Assembly: GCF_002744755.1 (NCBI RefSeq)
Contig: NZ_KZ319287.1
Coordinates: 1-64,000 of the forward strand
DNA length: 64,000 bases
Origin: Leeuwenhoekiella nanhaiensis
GTDB taxonomy: Bacteria; Bacteroidota; Bacteroidia; Flavobacteriales; Flavobacteriaceae
Direction of reading: 5' to 3'
Shown: piece by piece, positions 44,726 to 46,546 of the stretch
Layout of the letters: every line of letters starts with the position of its first letter
Position numbering within the stretch: the stretch's first letter is position 1
Program-made: the position numbers and the translations under genes
Notes under the pieces: model-generated
Databases searched by the model: none
Told to the model about the DNA's origin: nothing
Seen by the model: only the letters and a program-made list of their open reading frames with translations

Positions 44726-45391
44726 ATGTTTAAAAAAGTTTTAATCGCCGAAGATTTGGGTTGGAATACCCAGAGAATTGAGCAACAACTCCTTGAAACA
44801 GGAGCTGAAGAAATTGTTATTGCAGAATACTGCGACGATGCCTATGTGAAATATGTTAGAGCTATTAAGGATGATGCACCGTTTGATTTACTAGTCGCTG
44901 ACCTCTCATTTAAACAAGACCATAGGGAACAAAAGCTAAATAGCGGTGATGAGCTTATCGCAGCCATACGTGGGCTTCATAGACCTCTAAAAATAATTGT
45001 TTTTTCGATGGAAGAGCGCCTGCAACGCATACGCATGCTTTTTGACGAACAAAAGATTGATGCCTATGTGTTTAAAAGCCGCCGAAGCCTTGAAGATATG
45101 GCCGAAGCTTTAACTGCAGTTGCTCAACACAAACGCTATATCTCTCCGCAGGTCGCAGCAGCCTTAGGCAGCCAGAAAAATCTGGATATTGAAGAATACG
45201 ATATTCTTTTATTGGAAGAAATCGCTAAAGGCCGTTCTAATCGCGAAATAAGCGAGCGTTTCAAAGCGCTTACTATCAAACCGCACGGCATCAGCTCTAT
45301 CGAAAAACGCCTAAGCAAGTTGCGCATTGATTTTAAAGCTTCTAATGCCACCCAGCTTATCGCTGTTGTAAAAGATTTAGGTCTTATTTAA
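44726..45391 (+). CDS. LuxR/NarL-type response regulator
   Basis: A 221-residue regulator. I choose the ATG at 44726, one base after the kinase stop, giving the receiver N-terminus MFKKVLIAED; the upstream ATG at 44663 lies inside the kinase gene. Phospho-acceptor Asp59 is in LLVADLSF and the acidic pair is Glu9-Asp10. The C-terminal helix-turn-helix (LLLEEIAKGRSNREISERF) is LuxR-like but with an insertion (KALTIKPHG) in the recognition region, as seen in some Bacteroidota regulators. The targets are unknown; the long inverted repeat upstream of the operon is one candidate. Confidence 0.85.
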   Translation: MFKKVLIAEDLGWNTQRIEQQLLETGAEEIVIAEYCDDAYVKYVRAIKDDAPFDLLVADLSFKQDHREQKLNSGDELIAAIRGLHRPLKIIVFSMEERLQRIRMLFDEQKIDAYVFKSRRSLEDMAEALTAVAQHKRYISPQVAAALGSQKNLDIEEYDILLLEEIAKGRSNREISERFKALTIKPHGISSIEKRLSKLRIDFKASNATQLIAVVKDLGLI

Positions 45392-45412
45392 AACTAAGTT
45401 TTTTACCATAAA

Positions 45413-45443
45413 AAAACCCGAAACATTTAATGCATCGGGTTTT
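45413..45443. terminator. Terminator between response regulator and tRNA
   Basis: AAAACCCGA (45413-45421) pairs with TCGGGTTTT (45435-45443); A- and T-rich flanks make it usable in both directions. It ends the regulator operon and also lies just past the 3' end of the minus-strand tRNA. Confidence 0.8.
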
Positions 45444-45450
45444 GACTAGG

Positions 45451-45524
45451 TGGAGAAGATCGGGCTCGAACCGACGACCTTTTGACTGCCAGTCAAACGC
45501 TCTAGCCAACTGAGCTACATCCCC
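45451..45524 (-). tRNA. tRNA-Ala (anticodon GGC)
   Basis: A 74-nt cloverleaf on the minus strand. The acceptor stem GGGGATG pairs with CTTCTCC, including the G3-U70 wobble that is the identity element for alanyl-tRNA synthetase. The D arm is GCTC...GAGC, the anticodon stem is TTTGA/TCAAA with loop CTGGCAG (anticodon GGC), and the T arm carries TTCGAGC. The discriminator is A73 and CCA is not encoded. A broken copy of its 5' half lies 230 nt upstream with a GIY-YIG gene between them, and I see no promoter right before this copy, so it may be transcribed from the promoter at 45841. Confidence 0.93.
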
Positions 45525-45604
45525 ATTTTGTTACGCCAGCGTCTGCCCGCGGCGGTTTTCAGATATTTTTCACGCTTACGTGCTTCAATCTGCGTTTCTT
45601 TCCC
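45515..45604 (-). other. -1 frame extension of GIY-YIG ORF with slippery heptamer
   Basis: At 45598-45604 the ORF reads G-GGA-AAG in zero frame, an X-XXY-YYZ slippery pattern. Continuing in the -1 frame from 45598 gives ETQIEARKREKYLKTAAG and a further nine residues before a TAG at 45517-45515. This is the normal C-terminal half of small GIY-YIG proteins, with the likely catalytic Glu in the QIEARKRE segment, whereas the zero frame encodes an unrelated tail. Shifted, the protein would be 79 residues, the usual size. The TAG lies inside the tRNA (tRNA bases 8-10). Loss of one A from the AAA run would explain the shift equally well. Confidence 0.7.
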
Positions 45605-45753
45605 TCAGAATAAATAATCTTCCAAGGTCTAAACGGTTTTGTAGAAGTTACATTTCCTCGGTTATGTTGTTCCAACCGGGAATTTAAATCTTGAGTGAAA
45701 CCTACATAATTCCTTCCGCAACTTAAACTCTCCAATATATAAACAAAATACAT
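45559..45753 (-). CDS. GIY-YIG nuclease family protein (frame-broken or frameshifted)
   Basis: A 64-residue reading frame whose first 52 residues are a clear GIY-YIG domain: VYIL (residues 4-7), YVG (16-18), Arg26 in SRLEQHN, and the FRPWKIIYSE strand. The last 12 or so residues do not fit the family because the frame is off by one, so the predicted catalytic Glu is missing from this product. The ATG directly abuts TTTGACTGGCA, the anticodon stem-loop of a broken tRNA-Ala copy, and an intact tRNA-Ala follows 35 nt after the stop. Small solitary GIY-YIG proteins are DNA endonucleases or relatives of UvrC/YhbQ. Placement in a tRNA suggests a homing-type cassette. Confidence 0.7.
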   Translation of the reverse strand: MYFVYILESLSCGRNYVGFTQDLNSRLEQHNRGNVTSTKPFRPWKIIYSEGKKRRLKHVSVKNI

Positions 45754-45829
45754 TGCCAGTCAAATATCACGCTACCCGCCCGTACCGAAAAGGTACGTTC
45801 GGGCGGGTAGCCAACTGAGCGACATCCCC
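45754..45829 (-). pseudogene. Broken 5' half of tRNA-Ala
   Basis: On the minus strand GGGGATGTCGCTCAGTTGGC, followed by TA (45829-45808), matches tRNA-Ala bases 1-22 with one change (A9 to C). After an inserted palindrome and a short GCGTGATA, TTTGACTGGCA (45764-45754) matches bases 27-37 exactly. The copy stops in the anticodon loop, where the GIY-YIG ATG begins. With no 3' half and the D arm destroyed, it cannot be a functional tRNA. Confidence 0.85.
45772..45810. repeat. Palindromic insertion in the tRNA fragment
   Basis: CTACCCGCCCG (45772-45782) and CGGGCGGGTAG (45800-45810) are perfect inverted arms, with inner GTACC/GGTAC arms. It replaces part of the D arm and is bounded by TA on both sides, as if inserted at a TA dinucleotide. 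It could be a small mobile palindrome. Confidence 0.7.
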
Positions 45830-45840
45830 GTTTAGTGGCG

Positions 45841-45848
45841 CAAATATA
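45841..45848 (-). promoter_or_regulatory. -7 box (TATATTTG) before the tRNA fragment
   Basis: On the minus strand TATATTTG is a perfect -7 box 11 nt before base 1 of the broken tRNA copy, which is the spacing expected of a tRNA promoter. It would transcribe the broken half, the GIY-YIG ORF and the intact tRNA-Ala together. Confidence 0.55.
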
Positions 45849-45970
45849 ATTAAAGTTCGCTAAAATCACTTATTGTTTTTTGTTTTAAAACTTCGGCCTA
45901 AAACTTACTGATATAGATAGTGACCTGAAGCCTTTCTTCTTAATTTTCAATGCAAACAACACTTAATAGC

Positions 45971-46004
45971 TTTGAATAAAATGATCAAAGTCGTAGTATC
46001 TTTG
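45971..46004 (+). promoter_or_regulatory. Promoter of the acetyltransferase gene
   Basis: TTTG at 45971-45974 and TATCTTTG at 45997-46004 with a 22-nt spacer, 38 nt before the ATG at 46043. The -7 box is perfect; the spacing is at the long end of the accepted range. Confidence 0.5.
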
Positions 46005-46042
46005 CCAATAAACCTTCCATTCGTCTAAAAATTAGGTAATCA

Positions 46043-46546
46043 ATGATAAAAAAGGCAAATAAGGATCAGCTTGATGAAATACTTGCTCTTACCCGCGCCT
46101 GTGCTGCAAAAATGATTAACGCAGGCATATTCCAATGGAATGAGCATTATCCCTCACGGGCTGCCTTTGAAGAAGATCTAAATCGCGACGAACTTTATAT
46201 AATTACGCAGAGCGGAAAAATTGCAGGTACTATTGTTATCTCAGATCTAAAAGATGAAGTGTACCAACCCGTAACCTGGCTCACCCCGGCTGATACAAAA
46301 AGCATCTATATACACCGGCTGGCCGTGCATCCTGATTTTCAGGGTCAGGGCATCGCACAGCAGTTAATGGATTTTGCAGAGGATTTTGCCCGTAGAAACG
46401 GCTACGTTTCGGTACGTCTGGACACCTTTAGTCAAAATCCACGCAACAACCTTTTCTACCAAAAACGCGGTTATGCAAAGCTTGAAGAAATCTTTTTTCC
46501 TAAGCAAAGCGAATATCCCTTTTACTGCTACGAACTCGTTTTATAG
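46043..46546 (+). CDS. GNAT family N-acetyltransferase
   Basis: A 167-residue acetyltransferase. The acetyl-CoA pyrophosphate loop lies in VHPDFQGQGIAQQLM (consensus Q/R-x-x-G-x-G/A), preceded by the strand IYIHRLAV and followed by RLDTFSQNPRNNLFYQKRGY, the usual motif B region. The N-terminal helix-rich part (MINAGIFQWNEHYP) is found in many acetyltransferases of Firmicutes and Bacteroidota with unknown acceptors. It precedes a MATE transporter gene by 45 nt. Confidence 0.87.
   Translation: MIKKANKDQLDEILALTRACAAKMINAGIFQWNEHYPSRAAFEEDLNRDELYIITQSGKIAGTIVISDLKDEVYQPVTWLTPADTKSIYIHRLAVHPDFQGQGIAQQLMDFAEDFARRNGYVSVRLDTFSQNPRNNLFYQKRGYAKLEEIFFPKQSEYPFYCYELVL

Follow-up and report, generated by a model that had tools for sequence, protein, structure and literature searches.

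The tRNA-Ala locus considered here is probably a decayed copy of a small, homing-like selfish cassette that lives in tRNA genes and restores its target. It lies in a window of 64,000 nucleotides (the whole stretch of Leeuwenhoekiella nanhaiensis DNA that was analysed). As reconstructed from sequence comparison, the cassette would comprise a palindrome, a short tRNA stretch, a gene for a GIY-YIG nuclease of about 80 aa and a replacement part of the tRNA. The evidence lies in the anatomy of the locus, in empty and filled alleles, in an intact tRNA beside the broken copy, in tandem arrays, in selection on the protein, and in the link between nuclease lineage, tRNA target and palindrome.

Anatomy of the tRNA-Ala locus

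Read on the minus strand, the locus has the outline given in a preliminary description of this DNA: a -7 box, a broken 5′ copy of tRNA-Ala, a GIY-YIG open reading frame (ORF) whose ATG follows tRNA bases without a gap, and an intact tRNA-Ala(GGC) 3′ of the ORF (Table 1). The details of that description need revision, however. The broken copy, which it read as a continuous nt 1–37, is split after nt 22 by a palindrome and a further ten bases and carries a substitution in nt 1–22, and the ORF, which it read as an open frame of 79 residues, is frameshifted. It had overlooked both the palindrome and the frameshift, together with the tandem arrays and the mirror form of the cassette described below.

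Table 1 Features of the tRNA-Ala locus, with positions in the window
Feature	Position	Strand	Basis
Promoter-like (-7-like) box TATATTTG, 5′ of the broken tRNA copy	45841..45848	-	sequence
Displaced tRNA-Ala nt 1–22 with a single substitution; interpreted as the remnant of the native 5′ part	45808..45829	-	sequence
GC-rich 33-nt palindrome CCCGCCCGAACGTACCTTTTCGGTACGGGCGGG at the 3′ border of the D-loop (nt 22/23); interpreted as the left boundary of the cassette insertion	45775..45807	-	
Rest of the broken copy: ten bases TAGCGTGATA, then tRNA nt 28–38	45754..45774	-	
TTTGACTGGCA, tRNA nt 28–38, abutting the ATG	45764-45754	-	
GIY-YIG nuclease ORF, frameshifted, 64 aa; ATG at 45753	45559..45753	-	
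Remainder of the ORF, out of frame, running into the tRNA	45525..45558	-	alignment with L. polynyae and L. palythoae
Intact tRNA-Ala(GGC), 64.3 bits	45449..45524	-	
Terminator-like inverted repeat 3′ of the tRNA, arms 45413-45427 and 45429-45443	45413..45443	-	

Going upstream from the intact tRNA, the 5′ part of tRNA-Ala recurs at a distance of 305 bp. The displaced and intact versions of nt 1–22 are one base apart, the change sitting in the displaced copy, and the upstream flank enters the displaced nt 1–22 as it enters the tRNA of the empty site in another Leeuwenhoekiella genome (G004). On the insertion model, nt 1–22 of the intact tRNA-Ala would have come from the cassette and the remainder would be native. 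The best other full-length match to this tRNA-Ala in the same genome is 82% identical.

The 64-aa piece matches Pfam PF01541 (GIY-YIG) with an E value of 9.6e-11. By alignment, the window ORF is one base shorter than its relatives in L. polynyae and L. palythoae, which have 79 codons and end at a TAG within the tRNA, at nt 8–10 (GGGGATGTAG). Because its ORF is frameshifted the window copy is probably dead, the nuclease frame having been lost and the scar persisting; the one-base deficit may be a real frameshift or a one-base error in the draft sequence.

Other identities for the locus were discarded. A group I intron is excluded by the lack of any Rfam intron family match at E ≤ 1 in 45000-46100 and by the contiguity of the tRNA. 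Islands that integrate into tRNA genes carry a tyrosine recombinase; the 305-bp unit is too short for such an island and holds a GIY-YIG ORF. Nor is the window palindrome a genome-wide repeat, since the pattern CCCGCCCG-N4..20-CGGGCGGG has its sole exact match in the genome at this one place.

Empty and filled sites in Leeuwenhoekiella

We located the corresponding site in 13 genomes of the genus (L. polynyae, L. palythoae and L. blandensis among them; G000 is the window's own genome) by way of the neighbouring GNAT gene, and judged its occupancy by eye. The site is filled in four of the 13 (G000, G009, G010 and G011) and empty in eight (G001–G008); the stretch from G012 held no tRNA. A search for loci with and without the ORF, as proposed in the preliminary description, finds both kinds of allele within the genus. 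In the one pair that aligns on both flanks, G003 (empty) and G009 (filled), BLAST coordinates show that the filled allele is 306 bp longer and contains tRNA nt 1–22 twice. The comparison of G000 with G004 agrees, its downstream match being weaker (79%). A full-length match to this tRNA-Ala at 87% identity or more occurs once in each of the 13 genomes; the other full-length matches are 81–82% identical.

At tRNA-Arg(TCG), inspection by eye revealed a three-unit array in G011, scars made of tRNA pieces and a palindrome with no ORF and with an intact tRNA adjoining in G000, G005 and G010, and no fragment within the 160 nt inspected in eight other genomes of the genus; no close match for the site was found in G006. 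The window's own genome thus holds a second, ORF-less scar (L199, G000:C1), in which tRNA-Arg 5′ pieces and a palindrome lie upstream of an intact tRNA-Arg(TCG) at 775687. Orphan 3′ parts of tRNA-Ala or tRNA-Arg, which may be att sites of islands or remnants of the type-B cassettes described below, occur at G004:C23:303567-303612, G008:C1:39380-39422 and L212 (G000:C1:778162-778205).

One pair of filled alleles differs less within the cassette than upstream of it. Between L. palythoae (G010) and L. blandensis (G011) the cassette is 98–100% identical, compared with 88–99%, mostly 90–96%, upstream (the downstream flank is not alignable), and dS is 0.04 for the ORF as against 0.24 for a neighbouring gene. 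The higher identity of the cassette would fit a recent transfer, although a single case is only suggestive.

Relatives of the cassette at other tRNA genes

We searched for relatives with a profile built from 14 ORFs that lie at tRNAs or tRNA fragments; the profile is biased towards tRNA-adjacent ORFs, and the adjacency figures are therefore valid for this subfamily only. It matched 285 of 397 family-level genomes (E ≤ 1e-10), a total that includes other kinds of GIY-YIG genes. Among 124 family-level loci, made up of the best matches listed and some arrays, ARAGORN placed a tRNA within 201 bp and on the strand of the ORF at 113 (109 of 120 once the duplicates L048/L164, L060/L166, L063/L168 and L070/L167 are merged; the count omits L024 and L026, which both adjoin tRNA-Leu). 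The tRNA is downstream of the ORF in 86 of the 113 and upstream in 27. Eight of the 11 other loci have tRNA pieces by eye (L067, L094, L125, L140, L148, L156, L158 and L162), and no such pieces were seen in L109, L159 and L169. In L159 (G382:C4:43090-43320) the GIY-YIG ORF apparently interrupts another small protein gene, presumably one for a small four-helix-bundle/23S intervening-sequence protein.

A scan of named genomes for the motif REKYLKSA, which kept 80 loci of 117 relatives, and a phylum-wide search, which returned 27 new loci, gave a same-strand tRNA within 300 bp at 77 and 26 loci, respectively (103 of 107 jointly; these sets partly overlap the family-level set). Relatives were found in MAGs of Ca. 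Scalindua, Planctomycetes, Neomarinimicrobiota, Balneolia, Roizmanbacteria, Peregrinibacteria, Peribacter and Lloydbacteria, any single one of which could be contaminated; in the Ca. Scalindua and Peregrinibacteria MAGs the layout is alike and the palindrome nearly identical. Across all sets the tRNAs fall into 28 anticodon classes by ARAGORN label, two misreadings of broken copies being left out.

Tandem units (at least two) are present at 35 of 121 loci, with a maximum of eight. At L125 (G208:C34:6988-8675), eight cassettes in tandem carry tRNA-Met 3′ parts and terminators, and ARAGORN finds no intact tRNA in the stretch examined. At L014, L027, L029, L135 and L161, ARAGORN calls spurious tRNA-SeC or tRNA-Stop genes on broken copies, and such calls in Bacteroidota may be cassette remnants.

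With one query protein, plasmid and phage collections gave no match at E 1e-5, so that no mobility vector was found there; a scan of viral contigs gave one match, without a tRNA. Weaker matches, of a longer class of small GIY-YIG genes, lie mostly away from tRNAs: no ARAGORN tRNA was found within 1.5 kb on either side of L002, L003, L016, L020, L022, L030, L031 and L032. Two other weaker matches, L019 and L021, have a tRNA at 44 and 197 bp.

Two mirror-image forms of the cassette

The cassettes take two forms. In type A, to which the window belongs, the cassette lies upstream of a tRNA together with a spare 5′ part; in type B it lies downstream with a spare 3′ part and a terminator. At 77 of 83 type-A loci, the window included, the broken 5′ copy outscored every one of 20 shuffles (the six misses include L090, which could not be scored). 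For type B the corresponding figure is 26 of 30 (four misses; the evidence at L135 and L161 comes in part from broken copies that ARAGORN misread), and for the named-genome and phylum-wide loci it is 85 of 103 (18 misses). These tests exclude a chance origin of the broken copies.

An insert of at least 14 nt splits the broken copy in 75 of the 77 type-A loci. The preliminary description had placed the target in the anticodon loop, on the grounds that the copy in the window ends there. That ending holds for the window, but across the 77 type-A loci, the window among them, the last base matched ahead of the ORF lies anywhere between nt 15 and nt 60. Likewise, the same kind of cassette does occur at other tRNAs, as that description had anticipated, but an ORF start in the anticodon loop is not general. 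Anticodon-loop targeting as a rule is in fact excluded by the position of the inserts, which in 52 of 77 loci begin at the 3′ end of the D-loop; the commonest junction is nt 22/23 (31 loci), followed by 24/24 in tRNA-Leu (13 loci), with others at 9–11 and 15/16 and once at 32/33. In type B the palindromes sit instead in the anticodon arm, the variable region or the T-loop, and the 3′ tRNA part is repeated beyond the ORF, in several loci along with the terminator.

Of 77 full-length type-A ORFs, 52 have their stop codon within the tRNA. At 29 of 77 type-A loci the broken copy has the motif TAnnTTTG, which we take to be the Bacteroidota -7 box, in the 35 nt that precede it; at five the motif precedes the intact tRNA (background 2.4%). 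Because the motif accompanies the broken copy rather than the intact tRNA, the latter probably depends on read-through for its expression.

A minimal nuclease under purifying selection

The protein of the relatives has about 80 residues and consists of the catalytic domain only. The AlphaFold model of the L. palythoae protein (pLDDT 96.5) has a GIY-YIG fold, for which the closest solved structures are UPF0213 1zg2 and SLX1 7cq3 (TM 0.72 by query length), with I-TevI and UvrC weaker; the best Foldseek E value is 2.3e-3 and none falls below 0.001. The UPF0213 and SLX1 domains are closest to the cassette nuclease by sequence as well as by fold. Residues Y5, Y16, G18, R26, H30, E62 and K66 are conserved in 98–100 of 100 alignment rows, and we take Y5, Y16, R26 and E62 to be catalytic. 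Three of four proteins gave weak matches to families of phage endonucleases or homing endonucleases. The relatives thus appear to carry a homing-family nuclease domain with its catalytic residues conserved, and the window a truncated copy of it.

Comparison of the 25 closest pairs, which are not independent of one another, gave dN/dS values of 0.05–0.15 in 19, dS being saturated in the other six, which indicates that purifying selection acts on the protein. By profile coverage, 154 of 184 matches are full length. Many relatives, unlike the window copy, look intact, which suggests that such selfish elements form a widespread family in tRNA genes. On a tree of 102 ORFs, in which columns are few and single forks weak, the combined label of tRNA and type changes 24 times, compared with a mean of 71.7 after shuffling (none of 200 shuffles was as low). 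As judged from this tree, nuclease lineage tracks the tRNA target, and it tracks palindrome class in the same way.

Palindromes at the cassette junctions

We examined 98 inserts, which are 15–60 nt long and 66% GC. For 81 of them, folding is better than in 57 or more of 60 shuffles. A terminal stem of at least 5 is present in 44 with strict pairing (2.4% of shuffles) and in 71 when G-T pairs are allowed (9.5%); ten inserts fail both the folding and the terminal-stem tests. The more stable strand is the sense strand in 34, the antisense strand in 47 and neither in 17, which excludes an RNA hairpin as the palindrome's sole purpose.

Palindrome classes, which were set by patterns chosen after the inserts had been viewed (L054 being classed by its outer insert), change 13 times on the nuclease tree across all type-A rows, compared with 33.1 times after shuffling. 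At two Arg tRNAs, where several nuclease lineages meet, there are four changes compared with 11.7 (24 rows; none of 1000 shuffles as low). Because palindrome class tracks nuclease lineage, the palindrome appears to be part of the cassette rather than of the tRNA.

These observations bear on an explanation that is compatible with the cassette explanation, namely that the nuclease-palindrome pair is the real mobile unit and that an SLX1-like, structure-selective enzyme acts on DNA that forms hairpins, in tRNA genes and palindromes alike. The position of palindromes at loop borders, the match between palindrome class and nuclease lineage at the same tRNAs, the presence of SLX1 among the nearest solved folds and the reduction of the protein to its catalytic domain all speak for it. 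So do copies of the palindrome CCTGCCTGCCGGCAGGCAGG outside known cassettes, five of 20 of which lie by eye in tRNA fragments (L175, L178, L180, L187 and L190). However, linked inheritance alone could produce the class match, the window palindrome is unique in its genome, CCTGCCTGCCGGCAGGCAGG is present in just 10 of the 30 genomes tried (0–14 copies), and so strong a link to tRNA isotype points to sequence specificity as well. On balance we consider this explanation possible but rather unlikely.

The L180 locus contains a repeated unit of 108 bp. Other short palindromic repeats, for example CTCGACTGCGCTCGA and ATTCCTGC..GCAGGAAT, flank GIY-YIG genes that lie away from tRNAs (L002, L016, L020, L030, L032 and L169), and there may be a wider association of GIY-YIG genes with palindromes.

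A model for insertion and its alternatives

The most economical model for the target-restoring cassette is, we infer, homing without an intron. The nuclease would cut an uninterrupted tRNA gene at a loop border, which in type A would lead to insertion after nt 22, at the 3′ end of the D-loop. Repair of the break from a cassette-bearing allele would copy the cassette in, displacing the native 5′ part, and nt 1–22 of the cassette would form a working tRNA gene with the native remainder. In type B the downstream cassette would supply a replacement 3′ part and a terminator. The rebuilt target would allow more insertions, or unequal exchange, and hence tandem arrays. The palindrome might mark or protect the junction. 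Campbell-type integration of a circle (nt 1–22, palindrome, nt 23–36 and ORF) could give the same product by another route.

The preliminary description had likewise proposed a nuclease cassette that carries its own 5′ tRNA part and so keeps the host tRNA intact. Its proposal is borne out, as far as alignment can tell, by the displaced remnant that stays behind the promoter-like box and by the empty and filled alleles: the inserted part appears to restore the tRNA gene and the native part to be displaced. Two points tell against the model: a rebuilt intact tRNA should be cut again, and the plasmid, phage and viral-contig searches yielded no mobility vector. At the filled locus the broken copy is disrupted by the palindrome, yet an intact tRNA remains.

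The patchy distribution could also be explained vertically, if an old tandem duplication of tRNA pieces had trapped a GIY-YIG gene that was later lost in places through recombination between short repeats, with no homing. The repeats of nt 1–22 would permit precise deletion, ORF-less scars exist, and nuclease lineage and tRNA target would simply have been inherited together. Such a relic fits poorly with the difference between the close genomes G003 and G009, with palindromes and nucleases that are related although they lie at different tRNAs or in MAGs from other phyla, and with the 28 anticodon classes labelled by ARAGORN, and we regard it as improbable. A domesticated host function would have the nuclease transcribed together with the tRNA so as to regulate or protect it, perhaps in defence against phages or in control of tRNA dosage. 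It could draw on the purifying selection, the ORF stops within tRNAs and the promoter-like box retained before the broken copy, but is highly improbable given that occupancy of both the Ala and the Arg tRNA varies within the one genus Leeuwenhoekiella, that 30 of 184 matches are not full length by profile coverage, and that ORF-less scars occur.

The target-restoring cassette might belong to something broader. Tentatively, and with somewhat less than even confidence, we suggest a class of mobile elements spanning several phyla, in which a minimal, structure-selective GIY-YIG nuclease is joined to a matching palindrome that serves as its cis site and to a replacement tRNA part, and which invades tRNA genes from either end, rebuilds its target and expands in tandem.

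Relation to known systems and implications

REP palindromes go with RAYT transposases, which are HUH/Y1 enzymes. The cassette resembles them in role, as a small nuclease gene associated with palindromes, but its GIY-YIG protein and its insertion in tRNA genes exclude membership of the RAYT/REP group.

The nearest known systems are SegB of phages and the mobile cassettes of fungal mitochondria. SegB, in T-even and other phages, is described in PMC13096335 as a free-standing GIY-YIG homing endonuclease that is significantly co-localised with tRNAs of many isotypes and drives amplification of tRNA segments, likely by recombination at microhomology that the 5′ region of the tRNA shares with the 3′ region of segB. 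The bacterial cassette shares with it a free-standing GIY-YIG gene beside tRNA genes of many isotypes; unlike SegB, it lies on bacterial genome contigs, encodes a catalytic domain of only about 80 aa, is joined to a replacement tRNA part and has a palindrome at its junction. In fungal mitochondria, according to PMC3630166, mobile ORFs in atp6, atp9, cox2 and nad3 (that in atp9 a GIY-YIG) bring a replacement gene end. There too an endonuclease ORF inserts, the replacement part restores the gene and the displaced native part remains, but those elements concern protein genes, 3′ ends and organelles, whereas the bacterial cassette concerns tRNA genes and 5′ or 3′ parts and has palindromes and tandem arrays. 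Intronless homing is reviewed in PMC3984707. Group I introns in tRNA genes, with their homing endonucleases, offer a further likeness (PMC3984707), in their tRNA gene target and endonuclease-driven mobility; the cassette has no intron in its contiguous tRNA, and its mobility is proposed from sequence.

Neither the top-ranked matches of open-access full-text searches nor the passages searched in a 2006 account of the GIY-YIG superfamily (PMC1564403) describe bacterial GIY-YIG cassettes that carry tRNA parts, which is weak evidence of absence. The cassette family unites traits of SegB, of the fungal mobile ORFs and of intronless homing, and goes beyond them in carrying tRNA parts of either side, in having palindromes at its junctions and in reducing the protein to a catalytic domain.

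If the target-restoring reading is true, the tRNA genes of many Bacteroidota are parasitised by elements of about 300 bp, perhaps among the smallest autonomous-looking mobile elements, which would avoid harm to the host by supplying the tRNA piece that they displace. It would account for orphan tRNA fragments, for some false tRNA-SeC and tRNA-Stop calls, for small GIY-YIG genes beside tRNAs and for some palindromic repeats, and it would make testable how a cassette avoids cutting the target that it has rebuilt, and whether a GIY-YIG domain by itself picks tRNA genes by sequence or by shape. The replacement-part strategy of fungal mitochondria would thereby extend to bacteria.
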